From Fibrobacterota bacterium (GTDB lineage: Bacteria; Fibrobacterota; Fibrobacteria; UBA11236): a stretch of 64,000 bases of DNA. The stretch's first letter is position 1. The number at the start of each line of letters is the position of its first letter. Below, in pieces: positions 21,191-37,632 of the stretch. The notes beneath the pieces are model-generated. The model saw only the letters and a program-made list of their open reading frames with translations. It was not told the origin of the DNA and did not search any database. Made by a program: the position numbers and the translations under genes. Location: contig JAQBPO010000039.1 of NCBI GenBank assembly GCA_028287465.1, positions 1 to 64,000 of the forward strand, read 5' to 3'.

Positions 21191-21528
21191 GATCGGATCC
21201 TCCGAAGCCCGCAGCGGATTGCCGCCGCATGCGGGATGGTGTGGGATCCGGCCGTGGACTCCCCCGTCGCATCGGAGCCGGATTCACGCTCCAAGATAGC
21301 GGATGCATCGGCCGCGAAGGGCGGCGCGGCGGCACAAAGCGTTCTCAATCCGAAAACCCGGGCGGGCCTGTTCCCGTTATGTTTTGGGCATTTGCGGAGT
21401 CGCGGATCCTATCGTCCCGTTGCATTTGGAAACGCCCGGCGACGGGCCCGCCTTACGATTATGTTAGCTTTGCGGATCCGGGTGGGACCGCGGAACCTGT
21501 TCCAGAAACCAACCTCCAGAAATAAATC
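21191..21528. other. Divergent regulatory spacer before the TIGR02147 gene, with GGAAC-CT-GTTCC palindrome
   Basis: 338 bp without a credible gene. A perfect palindrome GGAAC-CT-GTTCC lies at 21492-21503, 25 bp before the TIGR02147 start, a position suited to autoregulation. No confident -35/-10 pair was found and the shared 21-bp operator is absent. Confidence 0.45.
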
Positions 21529-22350
21529 ATGATCGATGTATACCAGTATCTGGATTACCGGAAGCTCCTGAAGGAGTTGTACCAGGAGAGGAAGGCGCTC
21601 AACTCCAACTTCTCCTACCGGTATATCAGCCTCAAGACCGGGATCCGCTCCTCCGGCTACTTCGCCAACATCCTCTCGGGCAAGAGCAACATCTCCCTGA
21701 AGCTGGTGCTGAAGCTGAGCCATCTGTTCGGCCTGAAGCGCCCGGAGGCCGAGTACTTCGAATTGCTGGTCCTGTTCAACCAGTCCAAGACCCATGACGA
21801 GAAGAACCATCTCTTCGATCGCATCCTCAAGCTGAAGAAATCCAAGGTGAAGACCCTGCTGCCGGAGTACTACGAGTACTTCAACAACTGGTATTACGTG
21901 GTCATCCGGGAGATGCTCGACTTCCACCCCTGCAACGGCGACTTCGAAGAGGTGGCCAAGCGGATCTCCCCTCCCATCACCGCCAAGGAGGCGGAGCGGG
22001 CCTTCTCCGTTCTGGAGTCCCTCGGCCTCATCCAGAAGAACCCCAAGGGTTATTACGAACGCGCGGACGCCCTCATCACAACGGGCGAGGAAGTGTCCTC
22101 GACCGCCATCGTCAATTTCCAGAAGCAGACCCTGGACCTGGCGAAGCGCTCCATCGACCTGCATCCCAAGGAAACGCGGGACATCTCCACCTTGACCATC
22201 AGCATCTCGCAGAAGAACCTCCAGCGCATCAAGGAGCGCATCCGCAACGTGCGGCGCGAGATCCTGGAGCTGGCCAAGGCCGACCCCTTCACCGATACCG
22301 TATACCAGCTCGAGTTCATCGCCTTCCCGGTCACCAAGCCGAAGGAATAG
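21529..22350 (+). CDS. TIGR02147-family regulator (Fibrobacter paralogous family)
   Basis: Encodes 273 residues and matches TIGR02147 from end to end: MIDVYQYLDYRKLLKELY at the start, then a helix-turn-helix-like region (YRYISLKTGIRSSGYFANILSGKSNISLK, about residues 30-60), the LFNQSKTHDEKNHLF segment, EYFNNWYYVVIREML and a winged-helix-like part (about 140-190). The family is expanded in Fibrobacterota and is thought to be regulatory; a phosphorylation- or ligand-sensing mechanism is not established. It is divergent from the DUF1080 genes and 149 bp upstream of the first operator-bearing gene, making it the natural candidate to bind the 21-bp element. Confidence 0.92.
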   Translation: MIDVYQYLDYRKLLKELYQERKALNSNFSYRYISLKTGIRSSGYFANILSGKSNISLKLVLKLSHLFGLKRPEAEYFELLVLFNQSKTHDEKNHLFDRILKLKKSKVKTLLPEYYEYFNNWYYVVIREMLDFHPCNGDFEEVAKRISPPITAKEAERAFSVLESLGLIQKNPKGYYERADALITTGEEVSSTAIVNFQKQTLDLAKRSIDLHPKETRDISTLTISISQKNLQRIKERIRNVRREILELAKADPFTDTVYQLEFIAFPVTKPKE

Positions 22351-22395: not shown

Positions 22396-22429
22396 CCGAC
22401 GCTATGCGGAATTCCCCCGACGCTATGCG
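22396..22429. repeat. 13-bp direct repeat, 21-bp period
   Basis: CCGACGCTATGCG occurs at 22396-22408 and again at 22417-22429. The 21-bp period equals two DNA turns, so a bound protein would lie on one face. The second copy overlaps the 21-bp operator at 22425. Confidence 0.6.
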
Positions 22430-22445
22430 CTTTCGGAACGAAACC
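22425..22445 (-). promoter_or_regulatory. Shared CAZyme operator, site A
   Basis: Minus-strand reading: GGTTTC, five bases, GAAAGC then GCAT. Compared with the consensus GGTTTC-N5-GAAAGCGGAA it keeps both inner half-sites perfectly. It lies 55 bp before the DUF1080 gene at 22500, in opposite orientation to the other sites relative to its gene. Confidence 0.6.
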
Positions 22446-22499
22446 GCTTTGTCCGCGGATGGCGGCCGCTTTCCGATCCGGCCAGGTTATGTTAAGGCC

Positions 22500-23792
22500 A
22501 TGATACGTTCCGCCCCCGCTTGCATGGGACTCCTGGCCGGAGTAACCGCAATGTTACTCGGGGCGGGGCCGGTCGCGGCCCAGGGCACCCTGATCCAGGG
22601 AAGGGTCCTGGAGAGGGCAGCCCTCAAGCCCGTGCCGGGCGCCTCCGTGCGCCTGACGGGCAGACCGGGCTTTACGGCCGTGACCGATGCGAAAGGCGTC
22701 TTCAAGATCGCCTCGCCTGCGTCCGCCGTCCGGGTACCCGGCCCACTCCGGGAATTCCCCACACTTCCCGGGCGGCGGACCTTCATTCCCGAAGGCGATG
22801 GGGGATATCGCTGGTTCGATCCCTCGGGCATGCGCGATGCGTCCGGACGCAGTCTATCCGGCCACTTCGTTCCGCCCCTGGCTGCCGGACTTTCCCCTAC
22901 CCCGTCCCCCGCCCCAGCCTATGCGTCGGCCCGGGCCCCAGCCGCCGGCAAAACCTCCTCGGCCGTTCCGGGTCCTTTGGAAGTCGCTTGCGCCGGCCTC
23001 GTGACCAGACAGGTGCCGGTGGATGCCGATACCGTCGACCTGGGGGATATCGTCCTCGAATATCCGCCCCGGAAATTCGATATCGGCGTCAAGCCCATCT
23101 ACGGCGCCATCCCCCTGTTCGACGGCTCGCGCGCGTCCATGGATTCCGAATGGGAGCATTGGATGGGGACCTATCGCCTCAAGAACGCCCTGGGACCGGT
23201 GCCCATCGTCTGGGAGTTCCTCGAGGATCCGGTGGATTCCGGCATGACCATGCGCACCTGCTGCCGCATCCAATGGGGCGACGAGGATCTGGTGACCAAG
23301 CGCAAGTTCCGGGATTTCCAGTTGCATGTGGAGTTCAATCCGGTGAGCGCGCCGCGCACGGGAGCGGGGGCGGGCCCGGCCAATAGCGGCGTCTACCTGC
23401 AGAGCCTCTACGAAATCCAGATCAAGGACGATCTCGGGTTGGTTCCCTTGGGCAACCACGATGCCGGCGGGATCCTGAACGAATTCGCGGCGCCGGAAAA
23501 CCTCTGCCGTCCGCGGGGCCAGTGGCAGGCCTACGATATCACCTTCCGCGCCGCGCGGTTCAAGAACGGGGCCCGCTCCGAGAAGGCCCGCCTGACGATG
23601 TATTGGAACGGCAAGCTCGTCCATAAGGACAAGGAAACGGCCAATGAGCATAATACCGGCGTCAGTTCAGACTCCCTGGTCGATGAACCCAAGGGGCTCA
23701 AACTGCAGAGCGAAGGCCACGATGTGCGGTTCCGGAACGTGTGGATCAAGGAGTTGGATCTCACCGCGCCGAATACCGACCTGGGTTTTTGA
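22500..23792 (+). CDS. Secreted carboxypeptidase-regulatory-like + DUF1080 protein
   Basis: Encodes 430 residues from the ATG at 22500, chosen because a signal peptide follows (LLAGVTAMLLGAGPVAAQ). Residues 25-80 form a CarboxypepD-regulatory-like domain (IQGRVLERAALKPVPGASV), followed by a Pro/Ala-rich linker (120-165). Residues 190-430 are DUF1080 (IYGAIPLFDG, NSGVYLQSLYEIQI, GQWQAYDITF, GLKLQSEGHDVRFRNVWIKEL). It is a clear paralogue of the protein at 30081: identical domain order, DLGDIVL.YPPRK junction and C-terminal motif. A role in cleaving or binding oxidised (3-keto) glycosides outside the cell is inferred. Confidence 0.88.
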   Translation: MIRSAPACMGLLAGVTAMLLGAGPVAAQGTLIQGRVLERAALKPVPGASVRLTGRPGFTAVTDAKGVFKIASPASAVRVPGPLREFPTLPGRRTFIPEGDGGYRWFDPSGMRDASGRSLSGHFVPPLAAGLSPTPSPAPAYASARAPAAGKTSSAVPGPLEVACAGLVTRQVPVDADTVDLGDIVLEYPPRKFDIGVKPIYGAIPLFDGSRASMDSEWEHWMGTYRLKNALGPVPIVWEFLEDPVDSGMTMRTCCRIQWGDEDLVTKRKFRDFQLHVEFNPVSAPRTGAGAGPANSGVYLQSLYEIQIKDDLGLVPLGNHDAGGILNEFAAPENLCRPRGQWQAYDITFRAARFKNGARSEKARLTMYWNGKLVHKDKETANEHNTGVSSDSLVDEPKGLKLQSEGHDVRFRNVWIKELDLTAPNTDLGF

Positions 23793-23849
23793 TCGCCTCG
23801 CATCCAGAACCCGTTTTCCGGGACGCGGCCTTCCATGGGCCCGCCCTTT

Positions 23850-23870
23850 GTTTTCGGCGTGAAAGCGGAT
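23850..23870 (+). promoter_or_regulatory. Shared CAZyme operator, site B
   Basis: GTTTTC, five bases, GAAAGCGGAT: one mismatch in the left half-site and one at the right end of the consensus. It sits 82 bp before the glycoside hydrolase gene at 23952. Confidence 0.55.
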
Positions 23871-23951
23871 TCGCCGGCCTCGGCGGGTAACCCGGTCCCC
23901 ATCCCTCCCATCCTCCTTACCTTGGGAAAGCCGTCACGGCAAGGGGGTTCC

Positions 23952-25538
23952 ATGTCCAGTTCCATCCCGGGAGGCCTCCGCGCCTTCGTCTCCGCCCTAT
24001 CGCTCCTGGGCGCATCGGCCTATGGGCCGGTCCACGCCGACGTCGCGTTCGATATGGCCTCGGTGACCGGGCGGACGGGCGGCTTCGGTTGCTTCGCCTG
24101 GGCGGGCATGAAGGCCGGATACGCCGAATTCGACGCCCTGGCCATCCGGTACGTCCGGCTCAGCCGCGACAATGATTCCTGGGCGGACCTGCAGGCCTTC
24201 CGGGCCTTCTGCGATCAGCGCAAGATCAAATGGGTGTATACCCTGTGGCAGGCGCCTGCCCAGTACAAGGATGGAAGCAACATGCTCACCGATCCCGACG
24301 GGTTCGCGCGCCATTGGAAGGATGTTGTGGCGGACCTGGACGCGCACCATTGCCGCCCCGAATCCATAGACCTGATGAACGAACCGGACAGCAAGGGGGT
24401 CTGGAGCACCGGCATCGCCCCGGAGACCATGAACCTCTTGATCCACGCGGTTCGCCGGGAACTCGACCTCGCGGGCTATTCCGACGTGGGGATCGCCGGG
24501 CCCAATCTCACGAGCATGTCGGACTGGTCCGGGCCCAAGGCCTATTTCAACGCCATGGACGCGGAGTCGGTCGGGTCCATGACCGCATTCGCCACCCATC
24601 CCTGGGGCGACGACGTGGCCCGCCAGGATTGCCGCGGCGGCGGCGATTGCCTGGAAAAGACCTGGTCCGGATTCGGCGCCTCGGCCAAGGCCAAGGATCC
24701 CTCCAAGCCCCTTTGGATCCTGGAGTACGCCACGCGCCAATACGTTTACGACGGCATCTCCTATCCCGATCCGGACAAGGTCGGCCAATACAACGCGTCA
24801 TTCACCATGCCTTATGCGGTGCGCACCTTCGAAAACACCCTGGCCTTCCTGAACCTGGGGGCCACCGTGCCTTTCTATTGGGACGCCGAGGACTCCCCCG
24901 GCTCCACCAAGCAATGGGGCTACATCGATGAGCATGGCGCGAAGAAACCCATCTACCATGCCCTGAAGGCCTTGTATCCGCATATTCCCGCGGGCTCCTC
25001 CGTCATCAAGGCGGGGGCCCAGGACAGCCTCCTCTATGCCGGCGCCTATCTCAACGATACCGGCGTCACCCTAGCGATCGCCAATGATTCCAAGGGCGCG
25101 CGGGACATGACGGTGCGTTTCAGCCATGCGGGCGGGACCCTGGCTTTCGATCGGGCCATCGCCGTGGAAACCGCTTCCAGGCCGGATCCCTCCCTCAAAC
25201 AGGCGGACCAATGCGCGGTTTCCCCCAAGGCTCTCGTGATCGCCGGGGAAGGCGAGGAGGGGTACTCCCTTCGGGTATCGCTCGCCGGCTATAGCACCCT
25301 GACCGTCCTGTTGCGCAGGACCCCGTTCACCATCGGCATATTGCGCGCCATGGGCGGGCATGCGGCATCGCCGGGGATTGCCGCGGGAGGGGTCGAACCG
25401 TACGCGGGAACCGGCGCGTTACGGTACGATGCGGCGGGCCGGATCCGGAGAGCGGGCGCGGGCGTGCGGGCCCCGGAAGGGGCGGCCTACCGGGAAAACG
25501 GGAGACTTGGTACCGGGGCCGCCGTTTTGATCCCATAA
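23952..25538 (+). CDS. Secreted clan GH-A glycoside hydrolase (GH39/GH30-like)
   Basis: Encodes 528 residues from the ATG at 23952, which follows AAGGGGG and opens with a signal peptide (FVSALSLLGASAYGPVHA). The TIM-barrel covers about residues 35-360. Likely catalytic residues are the acid/base Glu144 in IDLMNEPD and the nucleophile Glu258 in LWILEYATRQ. The last 150 residues are a beta-sandwich (about 370-450) followed by a Gly/Ala-rich C-terminus without a clear sorting tail. Clan A retaining hydrolases of this layout attack xylan, mannan or beta-glucans; the family (GH30, GH39 or an unclassified group) cannot be fixed by eye. It carries operator site B in its leader. Confidence 0.78.
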   Translation: MSSSIPGGLRAFVSALSLLGASAYGPVHADVAFDMASVTGRTGGFGCFAWAGMKAGYAEFDALAIRYVRLSRDNDSWADLQAFRAFCDQRKIKWVYTLWQAPAQYKDGSNMLTDPDGFARHWKDVVADLDAHHCRPESIDLMNEPDSKGVWSTGIAPETMNLLIHAVRRELDLAGYSDVGIAGPNLTSMSDWSGPKAYFNAMDAESVGSMTAFATHPWGDDVARQDCRGGGDCLEKTWSGFGASAKAKDPSKPLWILEYATRQYVYDGISYPDPDKVGQYNASFTMPYAVRTFENTLAFLNLGATVPFYWDAEDSPGSTKQWGYIDEHGAKKPIYHALKALYPHIPAGSSVIKAGAQDSLLYAGAYLNDTGVTLAIANDSKGARDMTVRFSHAGGTLAFDRAIAVETASRPDPSLKQADQCAVSPKALVIAGEGEEGYSLRVSLAGYSTLTVLLRRTPFTIGILRAMGGHAASPGIAAGGVEPYAGTGALRYDAAGRIRRAGAGVRAPEGAAYRENGRLGTGAAVLIP

Positions 25539-25584
25539 GCGGCTTCCATCGAAGGGTTCCGCGCCAGCCCGCTTCCGTGAAAGC

Positions 25585-25605
25585 GGTTTTCACCAGAAAG
25601 CGGAA
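25585..25605 (+). promoter_or_regulatory. Shared CAZyme operator, site C
   Basis: GGTTTT, five bases, GAAAGCGGAA: one mismatch to the consensus. It lies 108 bp upstream of the PQQ-dehydrogenase gene. A partial extra copy of the right half (GAAAGCGG) precedes it at 25579-25586. Confidence 0.6.
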
Positions 25606-25712
25606 TCCCATCCGGCATCCGCAATGGGAGCGCCCAGGTTGATGGATCGCCCTACCTTAGGGAACGGTTCGAGGGGGAACCAGGACATCAACCGAATCCG
25701 GAGGCTTAAGCC

Positions 25713-27116
25713 ATGCCCGTTCCCCTTCCTTCTCCGCTTTACCGCGCCGCGCTTTCCGCCCTCGCCCTTCTGGCGATCACCGCCTTGTCGGCGCGGGCCC
25801 AGGTCGGCTTCAAGAACGCCTTTCCCGGCCTCACCTTCAAGCTGCCGGTCTACTTCGGCGAACTGCCCGGCGTGCCGGAAAAGACCTATGTGGTCCTGGA
25901 ACAACACGAGGGCGCCGTCACCCTGGTGACCCAGAAGAACGGGGCATGGACCAAATCCACCTTCCTCAAGATGGACGTGCACCAGGGCGGCGAGATGGGC
26001 CTGCTCGGCATCGCCTTCCATCCGGATTTCAGGAACAACCGCAAGTACTACATCAATTACGATCCCCCCGGGAACCTCGCCAACATCATCGCCGAACGCC
26101 AGGCGGACGCGACCTTGCTCAAGGACGCCGGCACCATGCGCGAACTGATCCGCGTGGGCGACAAATACGACAACCATAACGGCGGGACCCTGGCCTTCGG
26201 GCCCAAGGACGGATTCCTCTACGCGGGGATGGGCGATGGCGGTTCCGGCTATGATCCGGACGGCAACGGCCAGAACAAGAACTCCCTGCTCGCCAAGATG
26301 CTGCGCATCGACGTCGACAAGAAGGATGCCGGAAGGGAATATGCCATCCCGACCGACAATCCCTTCGCTTCGGGAGGCGGGCGCGGGGAAATCTTCGCGT
26401 ACGGCCTCCGCAATCCCTGGAAATGGAGCTTCGACCCCGTGAACGGCGATCTCTGGGTCGGGGACGTGGGGCAGGACACCCAGGAGGAAGTGGATATCGT
26501 CACCAAGGGATCCAACCAGGGCTGGAGCACCATGGAAGGCACGGGGGGGGACAATAACGGAAGCATGAACGTGCCCGTATTCACCTATGACCACAATACC
26601 GGCAAATGCATCATCGGCGGGGTGGTCTATCGCGGGAACCCGGCCTCGAAATATTACGGCACGTATTTCGTGACGGATATAGACAGCAAGACCCTCTGGA
26701 CCTTGAAGAAGAACCCGGCCGGGGGCAAGGCCGTTTCCGAAAAGGCGGGGACGGCCCCCGCGAACATCTCTTCCTTCGGCACGGACGCGGAAGGGCGAGT
26801 CTACGCTACCGGTATCTACAACGGAACGGTGTACATGCTCGACAGCCCGGACCTGGGGCCCGCCCCCACGGCCGTTCCCGGATCGCCCGCCTGGAAGGAC
26901 GCTTCCCGTCGCATCCTGACCGCGGCTCCGGGCTCCCGCCTCGATCCTTCCGCCTTCGGAACGGCCGCGGTCCTGGGGATCCACGGCCTGGATGGCCGCC
27001 TGCTCGCCACGGTGGCCAGGGAAACCCCTGGGTTACCCATCGGGCTCAAGCCCGGGATCTATTTCGCCTCGCCGGAGGGAAGCGCGTCCCAGGCCATGGT
27101 CCTGATGGTGCGTTAG
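25713..27116 (+). CDS. Secreted PQQ-dependent sugar dehydrogenase (sorbosone/glucose dehydrogenase-like)
   Basis: Encodes 467 residues: signal peptide (LALLAITALSARAQ), then a six-bladed propeller of the soluble glucose/sorbosone dehydrogenase family (GSDH). Signatures include GEMGLLGIAFHPDFRNN, NHNGGTLAFGPKDGFLYAGMGDGG, AYGLRNPWKWSFDP and WVGDVGQDTQEEVD. The enzyme oxidises aldoses at the periplasmic side and passes electrons to cytochromes or quinones. The last 85 residues resemble a degenerate sorting tail (VLGIHGLDGRLLATVA ... GIYFASPEG). It is followed 117 bp downstream by the mannanase and preceded by operator C. No PQQ-synthesis gene is in the window. Confidence 0.88.
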   Translation: MPVPLPSPLYRAALSALALLAITALSARAQVGFKNAFPGLTFKLPVYFGELPGVPEKTYVVLEQHEGAVTLVTQKNGAWTKSTFLKMDVHQGGEMGLLGIAFHPDFRNNRKYYINYDPPGNLANIIAERQADATLLKDAGTMRELIRVGDKYDNHNGGTLAFGPKDGFLYAGMGDGGSGYDPDGNGQNKNSLLAKMLRIDVDKKDAGREYAIPTDNPFASGGGRGEIFAYGLRNPWKWSFDPVNGDLWVGDVGQDTQEEVDIVTKGSNQGWSTMEGTGGDNNGSMNVPVFTYDHNTGKCIIGGVVYRGNPASKYYGTYFVTDIDSKTLWTLKKNPAGGKAVSEKAGTAPANISSFGTDAEGRVYATGIYNGTVYMLDSPDLGPAPTAVPGSPAWKDASRRILTAAPGSRLDPSAFGTAAVLGIHGLDGRLLATVARETPGLPIGLKPGIYFASPEGSASQAMVLMVR

Positions 27117-27233
27117 CCCGGAATCACGTAAAACCGGGCGATTGCCCTTTTTCCCGCCCCCCCCCCGGTTCCTGCGCCAATTCCCGCCAGCGACCCCGGG
27201 ATTCCCGGCCTATATTCCGGGCAGGGGGATTCC

Positions 27234-28370
27234 ATGATGAAACCATTTTCCGTCCTCGCGGCGGTGCTGGCCTGCGCCCAATGGTGCCAGGCGCTCGCGC
27301 CCGCCAATCCGAATACCACGGCCAAGGGAAAGGCCATCCTCGATTACCTCGCCGCCTTGCCCGCCCATGCCGACAAGCGCGTCGTCTCCGGCCAATTCAC
27401 GGACTTCGGGGGCAATTCGAACCTGGCCATCCTGGACGAGACCAAACGGGTTGGAGGGCATTATCCCGGGCTGATGGGCGGGGATTACGCCGACTTCGGC
27501 AGGAACTTCGTGACCAGCAACGGCGTGAACAAGACCGCGATAGCGTACTGGAAAGCGGGAGGCCTGGTGACCTTGAGCGCGCATGTGCCCCATCCCCTGG
27601 GGGGCGGTTTCCGCGATCGGGACGTGGACCTGGCGCAGCTGCTGGTACCGGGAACCGAGGCCAACAAGAATTGGACGCGGGTGCTGGATTCGATGGCGGC
27701 CGGCCTGCAGGCCTTGCGGGACGCCGGGGTGGTGGTCCTTTGGCGCCCGTTCCACGAGATGAACGGGGAATGGTTCTGGTGGAACGGCAAGGACTCGGCC
27801 GCTTTCGTCGGCCTCTGGAGGCACATGTTCGAGTACTACTCCAAGGACAAGGGCCTGAACAACCTGCTCTGGGTCTACGGCCCCAATATGGGCGCGCGGG
27901 TAACCAAGTATTATCCCGGGGACAAATACGCGGACATCACCGGCCTGGACGGCTATACGGACAATGTCGATTCCAATACCATCAAGGGATACGGGGAGTT
28001 GATCAAGCTGGGCAAGCCCTTCGGCTTCACGGAATTCGGTCCGCATGGGCCCGAGAATCCCCCCGGGGATTTCGATTACCGCAAGCTCATCGACGGCATC
28101 CGCAAGGACTTCCCCCGCACCTGTTTTTTCATGAGCTGGAACGCCAAGTGGAGCCTGCCCCAGAACCGGTTCGCCAAGGAGCTGCTTGAGGATCCCTGGA
28201 TCGTGAACCGGGAGGACCTGGATTTCTCCGCCGGAATCGCGATACGGTCCGGGCCGCGGGCGCGCGCCAAGGCGGCCGGGAGCGGATTGGGATTGGGAAT
28301 GGCCAGGTGGTTCGCGGCGGGGACGGATTATGCCGATGCCATGGGCCGTTCGATCCCGATGGAACGGTAG
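27234..28370 (+). CDS. Secreted GH26 endo-beta-mannanase
   Basis: Encodes 378 residues with a short signal peptide (FSVLAAVLACAQWCQA). The GH26 barrel is clear: acid/base Glu175 in LWRPFHEMNGEWFWW, nucleophile Glu267 in GFTEFGPHG, and the conserved VSGQFTDFGG start. The family hydrolyses beta-1,4-mannan, galactomannan or mixed-linkage glucan. The C-terminal 45 residues after LSRAN-like ends are low complexity and overlap the convergent DUF5060 gene by 43 bp. It is probably cotranscribed with the PQQ dehydrogenase since no operator lies in the 117-bp gap. Confidence 0.92.
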   Translation: MMKPFSVLAAVLACAQWCQALAPANPNTTAKGKAILDYLAALPAHADKRVVSGQFTDFGGNSNLAILDETKRVGGHYPGLMGGDYADFGRNFVTSNGVNKTAIAYWKAGGLVTLSAHVPHPLGGGFRDRDVDLAQLLVPGTEANKNWTRVLDSMAAGLQALRDAGVVVLWRPFHEMNGEWFWWNGKDSAAFVGLWRHMFEYYSKDKGLNNLLWVYGPNMGARVTKYYPGDKYADITGLDGYTDNVDSNTIKGYGELIKLGKPFGFTEFGPHGPENPPGDFDYRKLIDGIRKDFPRTCFFMSWNAKWSLPQNRFAKELLEDPWIVNREDLDFSAGIAIRSGPRARAKAAGSGLGLGMARWFAAGTDYADAMGRSIPMER

Positions 28371-30040
28371 ATGCGGAAGGCCCGATCCTGATCCGGGGCC
28401 AGGCCGTCGACGCGTAACGCCAAGGACGGGCCCGGCGAATCGATCAAGGCCGCTCCCGCGAACCGCTCCCACTCCCCTGAGCGCGGTTCGAATGAGGCCA
28501 CGGTCCATCCGCCCGCTCCCGGCCCGCCCGATCCGGTTCCCGCATCCAGGTCCGCAATCCGGATCGATTGTCCTTGCAGGATGCGCCGCCCCCGGTTGCG
28601 CACCCACAGGAAGACTTCCCTGCCATTGCCCGCGGCCAGGGCCTCCGCATCCTTCCCTCCATCCGCCGCCGCCGCGGCCAAAGGAAGCCCGTCCGCCATC
28701 ATGATCGCCAGGAAACGGGCCGCCGCGGCCAGATGGGTCCCGTGGCCATGGCGGAAATGGAATTCCCACCACCAGGACATGGGGAGCACCGGCATCGCCG
28801 AGAACAGCCCGCGCCATAGCCCCAGATGGAGCTCCCTTTCATAGGCCGCCACCGGTTCCTTGTCGGTCCCCTGCCACCGGAGGGAATACTCCCCGAGGAC
28901 GAACGGCTTGGCGTAACTCCGGTGATACGTATCCGCCAGATCGCGGAATCCTTCGGTCCCGCCGTAGTGATGGCGCTGGGTGAAATCCAGGTCCCGCAGG
29001 GACCATAGCTCCGGGTATTCGTGATGGGACAGGCTGGTGGAGACCAGGCGCCCGTAAGGATCCAGGCCCTTGAGACAGGCGCTCATCTCCCCGTGCCAGG
29101 CGATCACGGAGGCTTTGGGGACGCCGGCGCTTTCGACCAGGTGATCCACCTCGTTCCAAAGCTCCCAGGCGGCGAGATTAGGGCTGTAGCCCCAGCGCGC
29201 TACGGAATAGCGCAGCCTGTTTTTCAGGCAGGCGCGGGCTTCCGGAAGGATGAAGTAGTCGGCCGGGCGGGCGCACATCCCGCCCTTGGCGAGGCAATAG
29301 GGATTGTCCTGCCAGGCCGGCGGGTTGAAATAATCCGCCTTGGTCAGGAACCGATTGTGGGTATCCAAGGCGGACAGGATGAAGATGCCCTCGCGATCCG
29401 CCGCCTCCAGGAGCGCGTCCACCTTGGCCGCCACGGCCTCGTCGTACCGGCCCGGGCCCATGGGGCCGCGTTCCAGGTCCGCGCGGCCCGGCCCTTCCCA
29501 GGTGCGGAGGAAATCGCATCCCAGGGATTTCAGGTAGGGCAGCCTTTCCGCGAAGGTGCCGCCGGGCTCTCCCGGGGTTTCCCAACCGAAGTTCTCCCCG
29601 AGGCCGCGGAAAAGCCGGCCCGAGTCGAAACGGAAATGCCATCCATGGCTCCTTCCCGAAGCGTCCGCGTCCTTACCCAGGAATCCGTCGCCTTCCGCGT
29701 CGACGCAGATCATGCGCGATTGCGCGGTCCGCGCAGATCCCGCAGGGGTATGGACGGCGACGTGGAAGCCATGCTCACCGGCCATGCGCGGCGTGAAGCG
29801 CGCTTCCCATCGGGAGGAACCCGGATCCCCCGTTCGGAAAAAGCAGGGCTGGATCAGGCGGGCGCCGGTCGGGGACTCGAACACGGCATCGACGCGGATA
29901 TCCGCCTGGTCATGGGGATTCCGGAAGGGGGCCGACAAGGTGATGGACAGGCGGAAGGGCCGGTAGCGCGCCACCGTCGCGGGTCCGGGCCCGATGGCCG
30001 GGACCATGTCGATGCGGAGGGCGTCGGCCATGCCCCTCAA
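28328..30040 (-). CDS. DUF5060-containing glycoside hydrolase (GH5-like barrel), no signal peptide
   Basis: Encodes 570 residues (start 30040, or MADALRID at 30031). Residues 15-110 form a DUF5060 beta-sandwich (RPFRLSITLSAPFRNP). Residues 140-460 form a TIM barrel with likely acid/base Glu297 (AAWELWNEVDHL) and nucleophile Glu384 (FVLGEYSL). The remaining 100 residues are a beta-sandwich. This layout belongs to bacterial beta-mannosidase/mannanase or cellulase-like enzymes related to GH5. Unlike its neighbours it has no visible signal peptide or tail, which suggests cytoplasmic action on imported oligosaccharides. It follows the DUF1080 gene by 40 bp on the same strand. Confidence 0.82.
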   Translation of the reverse strand: MRGMADALRIDMVPAIGPGPATVARYRPFRLSITLSAPFRNPHDQADIRVDAVFESPTGARLIQPCFFRTGDPGSSRWEARFTPRMAGEHGFHVAVHTPAGSARTAQSRMICVDAEGDGFLGKDADASGRSHGWHFRFDSGRLFRGLGENFGWETPGEPGGTFAERLPYLKSLGCDFLRTWEGPGRADLERGPMGPGRYDEAVAAKVDALLEAADREGIFILSALDTHNRFLTKADYFNPPAWQDNPYCLAKGGMCARPADYFILPEARACLKNRLRYSVARWGYSPNLAAWELWNEVDHLVESAGVPKASVIAWHGEMSACLKGLDPYGRLVSTSLSHHEYPELWSLRDLDFTQRHHYGGTEGFRDLADTYHRSYAKPFVLGEYSLRWQGTDKEPVAAYERELHLGLWRGLFSAMPVLPMSWWWEFHFRHGHGTHLAAAARFLAIMMADGLPLAAAAADGGKDAEALAAGNGREVFLWVRNRGRRILQGQSIRIADLDAGTGSGGPGAGGWTVASFEPRSGEWERFAGAALIDSPGPSLALRVDGLAPDQDRAFRIYRSIGIERPMASA

Positions 30041-30080
30041 AGTACATCCTGGAAGCGCCCGGACAAGGCGCCCGGGAGTC

Positions 30081-31532
30081 TCAATAACCGAAGTTGGTCT
30101 GCGCGTCCTGGATGGAAAGGTCCTTGATCCAGATATTGCGGAACCGCACGTCGCGGCCTTCGCTCTGCAGCTTCAACCCGTACAAGGTCGGGTTCAACTC
30201 CTCCCCGCTATGCTTGCTGGGATCGATGCCCGTTGCCGGCGCCTTGGCGTCCCGGTTGTTATGCACCTGGACGCCGTTCCACCACATGGAAACGCGCGCG
30301 TTCTCCAGCTTCTTGCCGGCGCCGTCGTACCGCGCGGTGCGGAAGGTGATGTCATAAGCCTGCCATTGGCCGTTGGGCCGGTTCACGTTTGCCGAAGCGG
30401 AGTAATCGTCGACCAGGGCGGCTTGATCGTGGCTGCCGGGCAGGACGTTCTTGTCCTGGGAGAAGGCCCGGATCTGGACTTCATAACGGCTCTGCAGGTA
30501 GACGCCGCTATTGTAATAGCCGGGCTTGACCGGGTTCTCGTCGATGGCGTCCCCGGCATTGGTCTTCTCCGTGGCATCGTACTCGCCCATGCCGTTGAAC
30601 TCCACGTGGATCTGGGCGTCCCCGTGCACGGAAAGGGCCTGGATATCGTCATAGCCCCATTGGGTATTGCAGCAGGACTGGAGGGTGACCTTGTTGGTGT
30701 CGTCCGGGAACTGGGGATCCTTGGCGATCTTGAACATGATCTCCGAAGGCGAGAACCGGGGCCAGTCCTTCCACTTGGCCTTCAACTCGGCCTGGGCCGC
30801 CGCCTTGCCCTTGGATCCGTCGAAGAGGGTGACGGCGCCGTAGATCGGGGGGGCGCCCACGTCCAGCTTGCGGGGAGGGTAGTCGAGGACGATGTCCCCC
30901 AGGTCGGCATTGTCCGAAGCGAAGCGTACGCTCTTCTTGACGAGCCGATCCGCGGATACGTCCAGGGAACCCGCGGCCGCGGCCTTGGCCATGGCCCGCG
31001 CGCTCTTGGATGAAACAGTGGCGGGAGCGGCGTCGCCGGCCCATTGCAGGGCCGAAGGCGCATCCAGATGCAGGACGCGTTTGACCCACGACTCCCCGCC
31101 CGCGGTGATGCGCGCGAAGCCGAAGAAGTCCCGGCCCTGGCGGGGCAGGACCTGGAGCCGGTTCCAACCCGCGTCCGTAAGGGGATATTCAGCCGTGGAA
31201 ATCGCCTCCCCGGCCAATCCGAAAAGCTCCACCTTGGCCGACCGGACCGATTTGCCGGCCTCGACGAAAAGGATACCGTCGCGGAAGTACGGGGCGGCGA
31301 AGGCGGCGTCCGGTAGCCCGGATAACCCGGTGGCTCCCTGCAGGGTGAACCGGCCCGCGGAATCCGTCGTCGCCTTGAGGCTTCCTCCGTTGATTTCCAC
31401 GATGGCCCCGGCCACGGGCTTCATGCCGACCTTGTCGAGCACGCGGCCTTTGAGATTATAGGTCTGTCCCAGGGCGGCCGTTCCGCAGAGAAGGGAAACG
31501 GAAATCGCGCTGAACAAAGTCTTCGACTGCAT
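30081..31532 (-). CDS. Secreted carboxypeptidase-regulatory-like + DUF1080 protein
   Basis: Encodes 483 residues from the ATG at 31532 (signal peptide LFSAISVSLLCGTAALGQ, GTGGGG ribosome-binding region). Residues 22-80 form a carboxypeptidase-regulatory-like domain (LKGRVLDKVGMKPVAGAIVE), 80-170 a FlgD-like module placed internally, and about 225-483 the DUF1080 domain (IYGAVTLFDG, NSGVYLQSRYEVQI, GQWQAYDITF). It is a paralogue of the 22500 gene product. Its operon includes the DUF5060 hydrolase, and operator D lies 119 bp upstream. Confidence 0.88.
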   Translation of the reverse strand: MQSKTLFSAISVSLLCGTAALGQTYNLKGRVLDKVGMKPVAGAIVEINGGSLKATTDSAGRFTLQGATGLSGLPDAAFAAPYFRDGILFVEAGKSVRSAKVELFGLAGEAISTAEYPLTDAGWNRLQVLPRQGRDFFGFARITAGGESWVKRVLHLDAPSALQWAGDAAPATVSSKSARAMAKAAAAGSLDVSADRLVKKSVRFASDNADLGDIVLDYPPRKLDVGAPPIYGAVTLFDGSKGKAAAQAELKAKWKDWPRFSPSEIMFKIAKDPQFPDDTNKVTLQSCCNTQWGYDDIQALSVHGDAQIHVEFNGMGEYDATEKTNAGDAIDENPVKPGYYNSGVYLQSRYEVQIRAFSQDKNVLPGSHDQAALVDDYSASANVNRPNGQWQAYDITFRTARYDGAGKKLENARVSMWWNGVQVHNNRDAKAPATGIDPSKHSGEELNPTLYGLKLQSEGRDVRFRNIWIKDLSIQDAQTNFGY

Positions 31533-31650
31533 AATACCCCACGCTTGGTTGATTCCGGCCGGCGCGCATCCCCATGCCGCGATCCGCCCACGGAAAAAAA
31601 TATCTCCCCGCCCCGCCCGGCAGGCCGCCTTTCGGGACGAGCGGGCCGCT

Positions 31651-31671
31651 TCCGCTTTCCAATTGAAACCG
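31651..31671 (-). promoter_or_regulatory. Shared CAZyme operator, site D
   Basis: Perfect consensus on the minus strand: GGTTTC, five bases (AATTG), GAAAGCGGAA. It lies 119 bp before the DUF1080 gene start at 31532. Confidence 0.65.
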
Positions 31672-31737
31672 CGGCGGGAACCACCCGGGATCCCATCGCC
31701 CTGCGGCGCCACGGCCCTGTTTAGAAAGTACGGTTTT

Positions 31738-32724
31738 TCAGGGATGGGATGAGGCTGCCGGAACCGCGCAGCCGGACCCGGCGCAAAGCACTCTGGAGGC
31801 CGGCGCGGCGGGCCTTCCGGACCACCATCTGCCGTCCGCCAGGAAGCCCGGAAGGGCCGCTGAGGTCGCTCCCTGCGCCCTTACGGGGGCTGCGGAAAGC
31901 CGGACCGGGGCCGGTCCCAGCCGCGCGTAGATGCGCGCATAGTCGATCTCATAGACTCCGGGCCAAGGGGTGGTCCCGTCCGGGATCCCGATCCAGGAGT
32001 CGCCGCCGACCATCAGCTCCAGGGCCCAGCACATTTCCATCCGGCACAAGGATGCCAGGGTCTTATCGCGCGCCTTCACCACGCCGTCCACGTAGAAGAT
32101 CAACTCGTCCGCGTTCCATTCCGTGCCCAGGGTATGGTATTCCGAGACCAGGTTGGTCCCGTTCCAGCCCGCTCCGGCCTCCTTGCCGCCGGCATGGATG
32201 TACCAATAAGGATGGTCGGGTTCCTCGCCGCGGGTCTCTATTATGTCCAGCCAGGGCGGATAGCCGCCGTCCGCCTTGGTGCCCGTCATCTTGGCCGAGA
32301 AGCCCTTGCCCTTCGGCATCTTGATGCGCGCTTCCATATAACCGTACATCTGCTTGAACTTGCCCCGGTTGGTGATGGCCGCCCCGGCATAGGTCTTGCC
32401 CTGTCCGGCTTTCTTCTCGCCGAACAACTTCAGGCTGCCGTCCGAGATGCGGACATTGGCGGGATCGGGCCAGCTGCCGGGACCGGTCGCACCGAGCGCG
32501 TAGCCATTGCTCCATTTGGAGGCGTCCAGGGTCGTGCCTTCGAATTCGTCCGAAAAGGTCAGCTTCCAGGTGGAGTGCGCAGGGGGCTCGGCCTGGACGG
32601 ATCCGGCGAGGCACAGGCCAAGGCCAAGGGCCGCTCTTGTCAAGCCAAGGGCCGCACCCGTCAGGCGGAAGGCCGTGCCGCCCAGGCCGGGGCCCGTTGC
32701 GGGGGATGGATGTGAGGTTCTCAT
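31738..32724 (-). CDS. Secreted GH16-like protein lacking the catalytic nucleophile
   Basis: Encodes 328 residues with a long signal region (LTGAALGLTRAALGLGLCLAGSVQA). The laminarinase-type GH16 fold is recognisable from LTFSDEFEGTTLDASKWSNGY, GYMEARIKMPKGKG and the late GVYEIDYARIY. The catalytic ExDxxE motif is replaced by PPWLDIIETRG: the first Glu (nucleophile) is Trp, while Asp and the acid/base Glu remain. This was confirmed from the codons at about 32245-32265. The protein may therefore be a binding protein rather than an enzyme. The C-terminal 60 residues are Ala/Pro-rich. It is the last gene of the LVIVD/cytochrome operon (28 bp gap). Confidence 0.8.
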   Translation of the reverse strand: MRTSHPSPATGPGLGGTAFRLTGAALGLTRAALGLGLCLAGSVQAEPPAHSTWKLTFSDEFEGTTLDASKWSNGYALGATGPGSWPDPANVRISDGSLKLFGEKKAGQGKTYAGAAITNRGKFKQMYGYMEARIKMPKGKGFSAKMTGTKADGGYPPWLDIIETRGEEPDHPYWYIHAGGKEAGAGWNGTNLVSEYHTLGTEWNADELIFYVDGVVKARDKTLASLCRMEMCWALELMVGGDSWIGIPDGTTPWPGVYEIDYARIYARLGPAPVRLSAAPVRAQGATSAALPGFLADGRWWSGRPAAPASRVLCAGSGCAVPAASSHP

Positions 32725-32751
32725 GCGTACGTCCCTATGTTACGGGGTATC

Positions 32752-35346
32752 TCAGGGGATCCAGGGCAGGGCGACCGTGGCCGTGCGTATCCCATCCTGG
32801 GCCAGGATCCGGTATATGCCCGCCGGCAAACGGTTCCCGCCCGCGTCCCGGCCGTTCCAGAAGCGCTGATTCGCGCCAGGCCCGCCCATGCCCGAAGCGG
32901 AAGCCCACAAGGTGCGCCCGCGCGAGTCCAGCAGACTCAGTCTCGTATCCGGAGCGAAACCGGACAAGTCGATGCGGACCAGATTTCCGGAGCGTACCAG
33001 GCGTAACTTCCCGGTTTCCCCAGGCCCATTCGCCGTCGCGATCCCGACATGGGCCGCCGGTCCATCGTCCAATTGGCGGAGGAAGGCCACCAACTGATCC
33101 TTCTGGAGGGCGGTCAGGTGGGAGGTCTTGCCGTGCCTGTCCCCGGCATTGGCCGCGCCGATCACGTCCGCCAGGGTGGGCGCGGATCCATCGTGCAGAT
33201 ACGGCGGGGTCTCCCAGACGCCCTTGAGCGTGGGGGTATCGATGCCCAGCAGGGTATCCGCCAGCCGGTGCCCGGCGGAGGGCTTGAGGGTGCCCACGTC
33301 GTGGACCAGGAAGCCTTGGGGCGTGAGGAAATCTCCGGGAGGCAGGAAGCTTCCCGCCGCCTGCTTGGCGATGGGGCCGGAAAGGGGACTGTCCGTATAA
33401 AGCGGAGGGATATGGCAACGGGCGCAACCGGCTTCGGCGCTGTTGAATATGGCCTCTCCCGCGGCCGCATCCGCCCCCTGGGTACCATCCGCGTTACGGA
33501 AGGGGCTGGCGTCCACCTGGACCAGGCTGCTCACGTAAGCCGCCAAGGCGTCCAGCTCCGGGGACAATCCGGCCTTCCTGTCGCCGAGGGTCTTGTTGCG
33601 CGTACCGGCCCGGAAGTCCGCGTCCGCCATGAATCCCTTGCCGCCGAAAGGCCCGCGGATATCGTTCTCGAAATCCTGGATCTCGTCGAAGTTGGCGCTC
33701 CAATGCACCGGACCATGGCCCATCCCCGCCCGGCCCAGCAGGCTGGTGGTGCGGCGCATGCCTTCGCCGCGATCGGTGAAGTCCCAGACGCGGCCGTCCG
33801 TGCCCCCGTCCAGGTGGCAGACCGCGCAACTGATATACCCGTTGAAGCTCATCAGGGAATCCGCCGCATTGTAGAAGATGCGTTTGCCCTTCAGGACCTG
33901 GGGGGCCAGGGCGTCATGGGTCAGGGTGGGGATCTCTCCCAGGGGGCGCGATTGGACCGAGTCCTTGTCGATGGCGCTGGGATCATTGTACGGGGACACG
34001 TCCCAGATGGAGACCTTGCGTCCCAGGAAGGCGTGCACGTACAGGGTCTTGGTCCGCGCGTCCAGGGCCAGGCCGATGGGGGCCGCGCCGGCCGCCTTGT
34101 TGCGTTCCAAGACGGCCCCGTTATTGTACGGGTCCCGCGTATGCACGGAGTTCGATCCCTCGAGGCCCGTGAACACCAGATCCCCCATCCGGCTGTAGAC
34201 GCTCGCGGAAGGCAGGGATGAATTGTCGAAGTCGTTCCGCTGGACGGGGTTTTCCGTATTGGCCGCCAGATCGAGATAGGCCAGGGACGACCGCACGGTA
34301 TTCTCCGCGATCAGATCGATGCCGCTCACGAACCTGCCCCGCCCGGTATTGGCCTTGGCCGCCGAGATTACTGCCCGGGTCCCGTCCGGCGAAATGACGA
34401 CGGAGGCCAGGTAGTTGAGCACGCCGCCGCCCCCGGTTTCGGTATCCGGCGTGGCATCCAGGCCCAGGATGAAGGTGCGCGACTTGGCGAACGCGGCCGC
34501 ATCCACTTCGTAGACCTCCGCGTGGCCGGCGGGGGAAATGAAGCGCGTCGCCAGGATGCGGGCTCCGTCCCCGCTGACCGCCAGGGCGCGCGGGGTGGGA
34601 CCCAGGGCCGCCTCGGACACCAAGCGTCGGCCGATCGGATCCAGCTTCGCGATTTTCCCGGACCCTTCCAGGGTCACGTAGGCCGCCGTGCCCGCGGGAT
34701 TGAACGCGATGCCATGGGGCCGGGAACCGTATGCCAAAGCGATCGTGGCCAGGACATGGCCGTCCAGTCCCGACAGGATGGACAGGGTGGCGGACCCGCG
34801 GTTGGCGACCCAGATGGATCCGTCAGGCGCCTGGGCCAGGGTCTGGGGCGAGACCCCCGTGGGGATCTCGAAGAGCAGGGTCTTGGCCTTGGCGTCCAAG
34901 GCGGAGACGGATCCATTGTCCGGGTTCACGCACCAGACGCGTCCGCGCAAGGTGTCCAGGATGATGGAAGAGGAATGGGTGGGCGGGACGGCGGTGGGCC
35001 GGGTATAAACGGTGACGGGAACGAACCGGTTCACGAACTCGCCGTCCGCGTTCCTTACGTAGATGCTGGCGCGGTAATGGCCGGGCGCGCCATAGGTGTA
35101 GTCCGCGTCCCGGGCGGGGCCGTAGGCGGCGGCCGTGCTGCTGTCGCCGAAGCGCCAGCGGTAGCTCAGGGCGAGGCCTTGATCCTCCGTCGCCTCCACG
35201 GAGAAATGCACCGGTTCCCCGACGAATGCTTCCGCCGGGGACACCGTGGGGCCGGCCGTGATCACCGGAGAAGCGGAGGCGGCCTGTACGAAGGCGGCCA
35301 TGGCCGCGCCGGCGATCCAGGAAAGGCTTCCGCGGAAAGGGATCAA
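32752..35346 (-). CDS. PKD + beta-propeller + dihaem cytochrome c peroxidase-like protein with sorting tail
   Basis: Encodes 864 residues if translation begins at the TTG at 35346, which overlaps the upstream stop (TTGA) and gives a good signal peptide (LSWIAGAAMAAFVQAASA); the ATG at 35301 is the alternative. Domains in order: PKD-like (about 30-115, RWRFGDSSTAA), YncE-like seven-bladed propeller (120-480, VANRGSATLSIL), then a MauG/cytochrome-c-peroxidase-like dihaem part with CAVCH and CARCH haem sites (about 530-770). The last 75 residues are a FlgD-like sorting tail (RLSLLDSRGRTLW ... GIYRILAQDG). It should be an extracytoplasmic electron-transfer or peroxidase protein. It is translationally coupled to the LVIVD gene. 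Confidence 0.85.
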   Translation of the reverse strand: MIPFRGSLSWIAGAAMAAFVQAASASPVITAGPTVSPAEAFVGEPVHFSVEATEDQGLALSYRWRFGDSSTAAAYGPARDADYTYGAPGHYRASIYVRNADGEFVNRFVPVTVYTRPTAVPPTHSSSIILDTLRGRVWCVNPDNGSVSALDAKAKTLLFEIPTGVSPQTLAQAPDGSIWVANRGSATLSILSGLDGHVLATIALAYGSRPHGIAFNPAGTAAYVTLEGSGKIAKLDPIGRRLVSEAALGPTPRALAVSGDGARILATRFISPAGHAEVYEVDAAAFAKSRTFILGLDATPDTETGGGGVLNYLASVVISPDGTRAVISAAKANTGRGRFVSGIDLIAENTVRSSLAYLDLAANTENPVQRNDFDNSSLPSASVYSRMGDLVFTGLEGSNSVHTRDPYNNGAVLERNKAAGAAPIGLALDARTKTLYVHAFLGRKVSIWDVSPYNDPSAIDKDSVQSRPLGEIPTLTHDALAPQVLKGKRIFYNAADSLMSFNGYISCAVCHLDGGTDGRVWDFTDRGEGMRRTTSLLGRAGMGHGPVHWSANFDEIQDFENDIRGPFGGKGFMADADFRAGTRNKTLGDRKAGLSPELDALAAYVSSLVQVDASPFRNADGTQGADAAAGEAIFNSAEAGCARCHIPPLYTDSPLSGPIAKQAAGSFLPPGDFLTPQGFLVHDVGTLKPSAGHRLADTLLGIDTPTLKGVWETPPYLHDGSAPTLADVIGAANAGDRHGKTSHLTALQKDQLVAFLRQLDDGPAAHVGIATANGPGETGKLRLVRSGNLVRIDLSGFAPDTRLSLLDSRGRTLWASASGMGGPGANQRFWNGRDAGGNRLPAGIYRILAQDGIRTATVALPWIP

Positions 35347-37067
35347 TGGCTTTGACCCACGAAGAGGGCGCAGGATAGGTTCACGGCCCCGGCCTCCAGG
35401 CGGGCGCGGTAGAAGCCCTTGCCCAGGCCGGCGGTCCGTCCCAGGTCGAGCGCGAAGCCCTGCGACAGCGCGTCCGTTTCCACGGGCACGGTAAGCCGCA
35501 CCCGGCCCATCATATCGGCCACGATGATCCGGCCCGTGCGCGCCATGCCATGGGGCGCATCCCCTTGCAACCGGAAGACCAGGCCGCTCGATCCGGTTTC
35601 GCCCGTCAGGCGCGCCTGGGGCCGCCATATCCGGGTCCGGGAAGTGCCGACGGAATTGATCCAGGCCCCGCCCTCGACCGAGGTCCCGGTGGAAAAGCGG
35701 AAGCCGAATTCGTCCTGGATGCCGTTGCCGGTCCAGTCCTTGACCGCGCCGGCCCTCACCACCACTTCATAGGTCGTATTCGCCTGAAGGGGCTGGTCGG
35801 GAGTGAAGTTCACCACGCCCATGGTATGCCCGAAGACGCCGGGGATGGGTACGGAACTCCCCTTGGCGCGCACGGAGATGTTCTCCGTGGTCAGGGTGCG
35901 GTTGTCGATCTCCTCATCGAAGGCGATGCCGATGCGCGAGGTCACCGGCTGGCGCGGCTGGCCGTTGGCCGGGCTGACGAACTTCACGCTGGGCGGGATG
36001 CTGTCCGGTCGGGCCTGGTGCACGAAAAGGTCCGACAGGTTGTTGGTCCCGTTCATCCCGTCCCGGCCCGCGTCCCCGATCCACAGCATGTTCCCCAGGG
36101 GATAGCAATACCGCGAGCTCGTCTTGCCTGGTATGGTGCCATGCAGGACCACCTTGCGGGCCTTGATGTCGTATTTCACGAACTCGCCGTTGTTGATCTT
36201 GCCGCCGAACATGAACCCGTTCTGGAAGCCGGCGTAATCGCCCATTCCCGGGATCACCTCGCTCCAATCCATATGGATGGCCGTCGGATCCGTGATATCG
36301 TAGAAGCCGACTTCGCCCATGTTCTGCGGGCCGCTGCTCACCAGGAAGTTGCCGTACATCTGCGAGGTGTACATGCCCGGCCCGGTCTTGATCGCGTCCA
36401 GGAGCTTGGGGTTCTCCGGATCGCCGAGGTCCCAGGTGGAGACGCCGGAGAACTGATCCCCGCTGGTGACGACAAGGACATTGCCGATCACCTGGGTGCT
36501 GCCGGTGGTGAATCCCAGGATCCCCTGCACGCCCACCTGCTTCACGATCTTGCCCTTGCCCAGGGCCGAATAGTCCACGATGTACATGGGCGTGCTGCGG
36601 GCCTCGGCGTCGTCATAGCTCCGGGTGCTGTAGTAGTACGGCCATTGGAAGGCCGGCCAGACGCTGCCGTAGAAGCCGGGGTTGGTTCCCACCACCTTGG
36701 GATTGGCGGGCGACGCGAAATCCAGGAGGGTCCCGCCGTCCATGACCATGGTGCCTGCGGTGGGGGTGGTATGATCGTCGCCTTGACCGCTGAAGGTGAA
36801 GGTCTTGAGGGTCACCGGCGCCTTGGGGTTGGCGATATCGAAAACGTCCGCGCGGTTGCATCGGTTGCTGAAGATGAGCAGGTATCCCTGGAACATCATG
36901 GCCTTGGGGACGCGCTCGGTGAGGCCCTTGAACTGCCAGATGCGCTTGCCCACTTCCTCGGGAGCGAAGGTGACCTTGGGAATCCCGCCCCCGGTCTGGG
37001 CGCCGGCCGCGGAAAGGGCCACGGCGGCGATGGAAACCATGTTCCGGATCCGAGTGAAAGCTGACAT
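35343..37067 (-). CDS. Secreted LVIVD-repeat / Ig-like protein with sorting tail
   Basis: Encodes 574 residues from the ATG at 37067, which has AGGGGG upstream and a signal peptide (MVSIAAVALSAAGAQ). Residues 40-330 form a beta-propeller of LVIVD-type repeats (YLLIFSNRCNRADVFDIANPKAPV, MYIVDYSALGKGKIVKQVG, VGFYDITDP). Residues 355-455 form a SbsA/Big_5-type Ig-like domain (PPSVKFVSPANGQPRQPV ... ANTTYEVVVRAGAVKDWTGNG). The last 85 residues are a sorting-type tail. It is the first gene of a three-gene operon with the cytochrome and GH16-like genes, preceded by operator E. Probably surface-located; substrate unknown. Confidence 0.82.
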   Translation of the reverse strand: MSAFTRIRNMVSIAAVALSAAGAQTGGGIPKVTFAPEEVGKRIWQFKGLTERVPKAMMFQGYLLIFSNRCNRADVFDIANPKAPVTLKTFTFSGQGDDHTTPTAGTMVMDGGTLLDFASPANPKVVGTNPGFYGSVWPAFQWPYYYSTRSYDDAEARSTPMYIVDYSALGKGKIVKQVGVQGILGFTTGSTQVIGNVLVVTSGDQFSGVSTWDLGDPENPKLLDAIKTGPGMYTSQMYGNFLVSSGPQNMGEVGFYDITDPTAIHMDWSEVIPGMGDYAGFQNGFMFGGKINNGEFVKYDIKARKVVLHGTIPGKTSSRYCYPLGNMLWIGDAGRDGMNGTNNLSDLFVHQARPDSIPPSVKFVSPANGQPRQPVTSRIGIAFDEEIDNRTLTTENISVRAKGSSVPIPGVFGHTMGVVNFTPDQPLQANTTYEVVVRAGAVKDWTGNGIQDEFGFRFSTGTSVEGGAWINSVGTSRTRIWRPQARLTGETGSSGLVFRLQGDAPHGMARTGRIIVADMMGRVRLTVPVETDALSQGFALDLGRTAGLGKGFYRARLEAGAVNLSCALFVGQSH

Positions 37068-37632
37068 GGGGACCCCCTGGATGGAAGGCATGGACCGGCC
37101 CTTACGGCCGCTTCCGGAGCGCCTTCGTTAATTACACTTCCTGGTGAATGCGTGAGTCCAGAGCTTCCCCATTCCGGACCGACCGTCGAGGCGTAATCGC
37201 GCCGCCTTGACGGTTTTAACATAGGCGCCCGGTTCCGGAAATACCCCGCGATTGGGAAGTCCCGCTTCCTTTCCGCTTTCGATTGGAAACCAACCGGATC
37301 GATCCCGCCGGGACGCGCCGGCGCCCCTCCAATTCCGGGAAAACGGGCGATTCCGGTCTGGGAAAAGTCAATTTGGGGCCGGATTGGCGGAGTCGCGGAG
37401 AGATCCGCCGCATGTAGCACCGAAGTTACCCGGACCGCCGCGATGCGGATCGGAACGATCGGTGCCGGCGCCCGGACGGTAGCCCGGCCGATCGGAAATA
37501 CCGAGGGAAATCCCGTCGGATCGGGTCCGGAAACCGCTCTCCGCCCAGGTGGTTCCGCGGCGGTGGTTCCAATCAGGTTGGGGATTTTGGGGAGGGGGTG
37601 GAGGAACGGGGAGGGGGACCGTGCGCCGGGCC
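37068..37632. other. 565-bp intergenic region upstream of the LVIVD operon
   Basis: No credible gene on either strand: the open frames are short, low-complexity and lack ribosome-binding sites. It contains operator E (37270-37290). The rest holds no repeat or RNA gene that I can recognise; promoter elements for the minus-strand operon are expected but not clear. Confidence 0.6.
37270..37290 (-). promoter_or_regulatory. Shared CAZyme operator, site E
   Basis: Perfect consensus on the minus strand: GGTTTC, five bases (CAATC), GAAAGCGGAA. It lies 203 bp before the LVIVD gene start. Confidence 0.65.

Follow-up and report, generated by a model that had tools for sequence, protein, structure and literature searches.

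A palindrome at a fixed distance from -10-like elements in a Fibrobacterota glycan-degradation cluster, a probable operator of a TIGR02147/DUF4423 protein

In the window analyzed here (a stretch of 64,000 nucleotides from a Fibrobacterota bacterium, genome G000), a short inverted repeat recurs upstream of genes for glycan hydrolases and sugar-oxidizing proteins. This raises the question of which protein acts at the repeat and in what way. The initial annotation had described five copies of a 21-bp operator in front of five transcription units. All five sites are real, although two of the starts given (31651 and 37270) are each one base off.

The palindrome and its promoters

The features of the cluster are listed below. 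The -10 elements are consensus matches throughout, and start positions are predicted from them.

21339..21359, +, degenerate operator GCGTTCTCAATCCGAAAACCC upstream of the regulator gene, weak in the window
21529..22350, +, proposed regulator, TIGR02147/DUF4423 protein of 273 aa (TIGR02147, 5.6e-83; DUF4423, 8.5e-38)
22428..22446, +, operator site 1, exact palindrome CGCTTTCGGAACGAAACCG, centre 51 bp before TATGTT (original 21-bp pattern: 22425-22445, -, 2 mismatches)
22488..22493, +, -10-like TATGTT of the site 1 promoter
22500..23792, +, DUF1080 (3-keto-disaccharide hydrolase) gene, start codon uncertain (PF06439, 1.5e-27)
23850..23870, +, operator site 2, composite match with 0 mismatches (21-bp pattern: 23850-23870, +, 2 mismatches)
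23918..23923, +, -10-like TACCTT of the site 2 promoter
23952..25538, +, 528-aa secreted clan-A-like hydrolase (from translation; clan as assigned in the initial annotation)
25585..25605, +, operator site 3, pattern match (21-bp pattern: 25585-25605, +, 1 mismatch)
25653..25658, +, -10-like TACCTT of the site 3 promoter
25713..27116, +, GSDH, glucose/sorbosone dehydrogenase (PF07995, 9e-35)
27234..28370, +, GH26 mannanase-type hydrolase (PF02156, 1.7e-53)
28328..30040, -, DUF5060 protein (PF16586, 5.4e-08)
30081..31532, -, DUF1080 gene (PF06439, 8.9e-19)
31597..31602, -, -10-like TATTTT of the site 4 promoter
31650..31671, -, operator site 4, exact palindrome at 31653-31671, right half and spacing conserved in relatives G002 and G005 (21-bp pattern: 31650-31670, -, 0 mismatches)
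31738..32724, -, GH16 gene (PF00722, 1.5e-11)
32752..35628, -, PKD, beta-propeller, RoxA/MauG-like cytochrome protein (profile matches)
35343..37091, -, LVIVD-type protein with a Big_5 domain, first gene of the operon (Big_5 match; LVIVD as read in the initial annotation)
37218..37223, -, -10-like TATGTT of the site 5 promoter
37271..37292, -, operator site 5, palindrome at 37274-37292, right half and spacing conserved in G002 (21-bp pattern: 37271-37291, -, 0 mismatches)

Comparison of the sites confirmed the repeat, but indicated that a 19-bp palindrome, CGSTTTC-N5-GAAASCG, describes it better than the 21-bp unit. The "conserved right flank" noted previously corresponds to the promoter-side half of this palindrome plus GGAA, which is kept on that side. 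The palindrome is exact at sites 1 and 4, and its left half-site is less conserved than the right one. A search of the window with the 21-bp pattern (≤3 mismatches) yielded eight matches, compared with 0.6 expected, and none of 100 shuffles reached this number. The three extra matches are located at 35682 (internal), 40481 (hemF) and 44457; that in hemF was rejected as an operator and put down to chance, since it sits within the gene.

After correction of over-long ORF starts, each of the five sites stands before a separate transcription unit, and the GH26 gene does follow the GSDH gene, as in the PQQ-dehydrogenase/mannanase pair proposed earlier. The DUF5060 gene is probably co-transcribed with the preceding DUF1080 gene (30081..31532), given the short gap between them. 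A Pfam scan of the 528-aa hydrolase gave no match. The protein encoded at 32752-35628 (-) combines PKD, beta-propeller and MauG/RoxA-like di-haem cytochrome domains and a FlgD_ig tail in one chain.

At sites 2-5, the palindrome centre and the first base of the downstream -10-like TANNTT are exactly 60 bp apart, the order being GAAAGCGGA, then 48 bases, then TANNTT. Site 1 is placed 9 bp closer, with 51 bp from centre to -10. Taking into account only how often TANNTT occurs in the window, the probability that four sites share an offset by chance is about 2e-11.

This arrangement is conserved in related genomes. Among six genomes of the genus, a regulator ortholog, the cluster and strong composite sites co-occur in G000, G002 and G005, of which the two relatives match MAGs RYN_348 and nzgw217. 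Both relatives keep the LVIVD-cytochrome-GH16 operon and the DUF1080 gene in synteny, each preceded by the same composite promoter; orthologs of the LVIVD-type protein (81% identity in G002, 74% in G005) were found in these two relatives only. Eight promoters from the three species contain TTT-N6-GAAAGCGGAA and TANNTT at one fixed distance. The right half-site GAAAGCGGAA is conserved across all eight, with GAAAGCGGAT in one variant, and one promoter (G005:C10:56249) has a weaker -10, TAGTAT. Outside the composite, the upstream DNA has drifted between the three genomes. The G005 counterpart of site 1 reads TTTC-N5-GAAA, with the same 48-bp gap between GAAA and the -10 as at site 1. The other three genomes of the genus (G001, G003 and G004) contain neither the regulator ortholog nor the LVIVD ortholog nor the cluster, and the composite scan gave no strong site within a cluster in them. 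The inverted repeat, kept at several promoters and in relatives, has the character of a palindromic operator such as a dimeric regulator would bind.

Genome-wide, the palindrome occurs at 25 places with ≤1 mismatch (8 of them exact), compared with two for the reversed pattern. By crude gene calls, upstream regions hold 14 of the 25 (p about 1e-8), against a baseline of roughly 10% non-coding sequence and with two window sites shifted by hand out of over-long ORFs. It could be argued that the repeats arose by chance or are copies of promoter DNA that was duplicated together with paralogous genes: two of the downstream genes are DUF1080 paralogs, the genome has a high GC content, and coding DNA holds half of the weak matches outside the window. 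Such an origin is, however, most improbable, since the downstream genes belong to different families, other species keep the exact spacing, and the reversed-pattern controls are far lower.

The candidate regulator and its mode of action

The gene located just before site 1 encodes a protein that matches TIGR02147 (Fsuc_second)/DUF4423 over its full length (278.5 bits over residues 1-270, compared with a curated cut-off of 50). Its orthologs in G002 and G005 (92% and 88% identity) were the only ones among the relatives searched, the best matches in the other genomes of the genus showing 44-47% identity, and the HTH region is nearly identical among the three. In the AlphaFold2 model (mean pLDDT 65), residues 10-85 form helices at a pLDDT of about 84. 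With moderate confidence, the model suggests a five-helix XRE-like HTH at the N-terminus and a winged helix. Foldseek placed 1y7y_B at a probability of 0.99, with no E below 0.09, and the HigA and DdrO rows had Z of about 8. Weak matches and the model concur on a putative XRE-like HTH, with no Pfam HTH match and no E-value below 0.04, and a direct sequence search of solved structures produced nothing significant.

The initial annotation had named this protein together with LacI/GntR candidates; it is the one that is supported, and no LacI/GntR-type gene was present among the window proteins scanned. The five operators are very probably worked by the adjoining TIGR02147 regulator. We are fairly confident in the fuller reading that the motif is the operator of the protein encoded at 21529-22350, that this protein is a class I activator, and that other members of the family have a like arrangement.

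CRP-type class I activators have sites near -61.5 and -71.5. With the start of the -10 element set at -12, the palindrome centres would be near -72 (sites 2-5) and -63 (site 1), positions typical, by analogy, of such activators. The distance is fixed and appears helically phased (51 and 60 bp here), and paralog loci add distances of 48-53 and 60-62 bp before the -10. A -35 box was sought at the eight composite promoters and no good one was found (best, 3/6). In the proposed model, whose binding, dimer, activation, transcription-start and inducer components we infer, a dimer of this one-component regulator would bind CGSTTTC-N5-GAAASCG about 60 bp before the -10 (near -72; at site 1 near -63) and would recruit RNA polymerase to promoters lacking a -35 box. 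This recruitment would switch on a regulon for glycan breakdown and sugar oxidation comprising the cluster and a few genes elsewhere. Other family members would follow this scheme, each paralog with its own palindrome, and often at the regulator's own promoter. An ECF-type sigma factor encoded in the window (5503-6054, -), beside a heavy-metal-resistance-type protein (4555-5151), was rejected as the cause, as it would recognise -35/-10 elements and not a site near -72.

The same protein at the same operator might instead be a repressor, acting by looping or steric block as long as an inducer sugar is absent. Repressors are common among XRE-fold proteins, and the presence of the site at the own promoter of many paralogs is also compatible with negative autoregulation. 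Repression is nevertheless unlikely: the sites are placed far upstream of the core promoter, their two distances differing by roughly one turn of the helix, and core promoters without a -35 fit recruitment better than blocking. Activation is preferred on account of this position and the missing -35.

The reading of all these units as one regulon, covering glycan-hydrolase, DUF1080, GSDH and cytochrome/LVIVD genes, is supported. The scan proposed in the initial annotation, in which matches should concentrate before carbohydrate genes, was for the most part borne out. Ten of the 20 palindromes outside the window (≤1 mismatch) are intergenic, and six of these precede carbohydrate-type genes (GH5/DUF5060, SASA esterase, DUF1080, GSDH, ThuA and a putative esterase). 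The other four precede unrelated genes (sortilin-type, HD-domain, IMPDH and sensor-kinase/CheB), and half of the outside matches, as well as about half of all 25 in the genome, fall in coding DNA. A -10 element is found at 60, 60 and 61 bp at the sites before the GH5-like, esterase and ThuA genes. The regulon therefore seems to reach beyond the cluster, with some noise, and the idea of a strictly cluster-local signal was discarded, because the 60-61 bp spacing was also seen at sites in C12, C95 and C97. A weak composite site (L144, G000:C10:268-339; 3 mismatches, same spacing) was also observed near a contig end, where the downstream gene is cut off.

The TIGR02147 family in Fibrobacterota

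Genome G000 contains 53 TIGR02147 genes. Most Fibrobacterota searched contain 13-84 copies, one small genome has three, and none was found in 14 well-known control genomes. In the same 5.8-Mb genome, at least 40 GSDH-type dehydrogenase matches were observed.

About 100 loci around TIGR02147 genes, fetched from seven genomes, were scanned for promoters of one locus sharing a palindrome at an equal distance from a -10-like box. Palindrome pairs scoring ≥280 were 11-fold commoner within one locus than across loci. Among the best pairs, the promoter of the TIGR02147 gene itself is over-represented (p about 9e-4), and eight own-promoter matches scored ≥40, compared with 0.2 expected. Perfect palindromes 48-53.5 bp before the -10 were found in 8 of 63 protein clusters (maximum of three in other 6-bp bins); these 63 groups result from clustering at 60% identity, and some other tallies count orthologous loci more than once. 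Operator-to--10 distances in the family gather in two ranges, 48-53 and 60-62 bp. For the majority of the 119 TIGR02147 genes considered, no confident operator emerged. The scan suggests that many paralogs have a characteristic palindrome that recurs at neighbouring promoters, of the following types:

CGTTTACN4GTAAACG: L188, L194, L227, L210
CGTTGTC/GACAACG types: L219, L261, L241 (the last from a different family of the same class, its second site preceding a pectate-lyase-like gene)
GGTTCTCN6GAGAACC: L195, three promoters
TGGTGAAN6TTCATCA: L196, L229
TGTTTAG type: L174
CGATCAAN4TTGATCG: L257
CGCTCTCN5GAGAGCG: L177, L203, L266

At a further locus (L191, G000:C79), divergent promoters next to a TIGR02147 gene have exact AATCTGCGTACGCAGATT-type palindromes in common; their spacing, 55.5 bp, falls outside both distance modes.

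For 12 proteins, HTH identity correlated with half-site identity (Mantel r 0.52, p 3e-4) and identity of the C-terminal part more weakly (r 0.27, p 0.01); the operators were picked by eye from the best pairs, so the correlation is supportive, not blind. As a forward test, exact CGTTTACN4GTAAACG was then searched in 11 genomes. All 15 copies found are intergenic, with a -10 at 48.5-50.5 bp in 12 (control, 0) and at 60.5 in one. Five precede TIGR02147 genes, and all five encoded proteins carry AGINS[AS]P[FY]FK recognition helices. These five loci and two neighbour sites were already part of the earlier scan; of the remaining, new places, most precede DUF1080, GSDH, ThuA, esterase or GH5 cellulase genes. 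The GH5 cellulase site (L271, G013:C10:169131) is from a class-level relative and is the one with the -10 at 60.5 bp.

The family-wide pattern also bears on whether the operator belongs to another regulator elsewhere (of LacI, GntR, AraC or CRP type), with the TIGR02147 gene a bystander. The regulator's own promoter in the window has a degenerate site only, which counts against the explanation preferred here, and clear CGSTTTC copies are missing near the closest paralogs (L160, L161 and L171; 70-72% identical, with a very similar HTH), so that the prediction of a common operator for them was not clearly borne out. Against a bystander role, the regulator orthologs co-occur with the cluster, other TIGR02147 loci have shared palindromes that vary with the HTH sequence, and the proteins scanned in the window offer no LacI/GntR-type rival; we consider it distinctly improbable. 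In G002 (C119, 21629-21648), a perfect palindrome lies between the regulator gene and a divergent DUF1080 gene.

The palindromic unit, the fixed -10 distance, the conservation in two genomes and the family-wide rule are new relative to the initial annotation.

Relation to known systems

The predicted arrangement resembles that of CRP-type class I activators in the position of the palindrome (about -61 to -64 or -72), the one-turn spacing and the lack of a good -35. It differs in that the window protein is not recognised as CRP/FNR, the operator varies with the paralog and the polymerase contact is putative. XRE-family HTH regulators (C.AhdI, HigA and DdrO) may share the N-terminal five-helix HTH that the model predicts, with weak E-values. 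Unlike these, the window protein adds an ArsR/MarR-like winged helix and a DUF4423 C-terminus, and its family is amplified to the above copy number in G000, beside secreted carbohydrate genes. Polysaccharide utilisation loci use cluster-situated sugar regulators of LacI and AraC type. The window regulator gene likewise lies inside the cluster that it would control, but it encodes another protein family with no recognised sugar-binding domain.

In the literature searched, there was no function for the TIGR02147 family and no prior description of TIGR02147 or Fibrobacter regulons, and DUF4423 was mentioned solely as an upregulated Bdellovibrio protein. The genome paper on Fibrobacter succinogenes S85 reported a paucity of regulators near cellulase genes and described their transcriptional control as an unanswered question (PMC3079729). 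The TIGR02147 family, whose members are not named as regulators in annotation, could fill this gap. We put it at somewhat better than even that its many members in Fibrobacterota are one-component class I activators, each paralog with its own palindrome readable from the recognition helix, and that they supply the control layer still missing for the cellulose and hemicellulose genes of Fibrobacter-type bacteria. The cellulase-control question thereby becomes testable, with operators and targets readable from sequence, and the paralogs are a natural set from which the DNA specificity of an HTH could be learned.

Elsewhere in the window, a type III polyketide (chalcone/stilbene) synthase is encoded at 57330-58502 (-), with an adjoining methyltransferase gene; a UbiA-type prenyltransferase is located apart from it.
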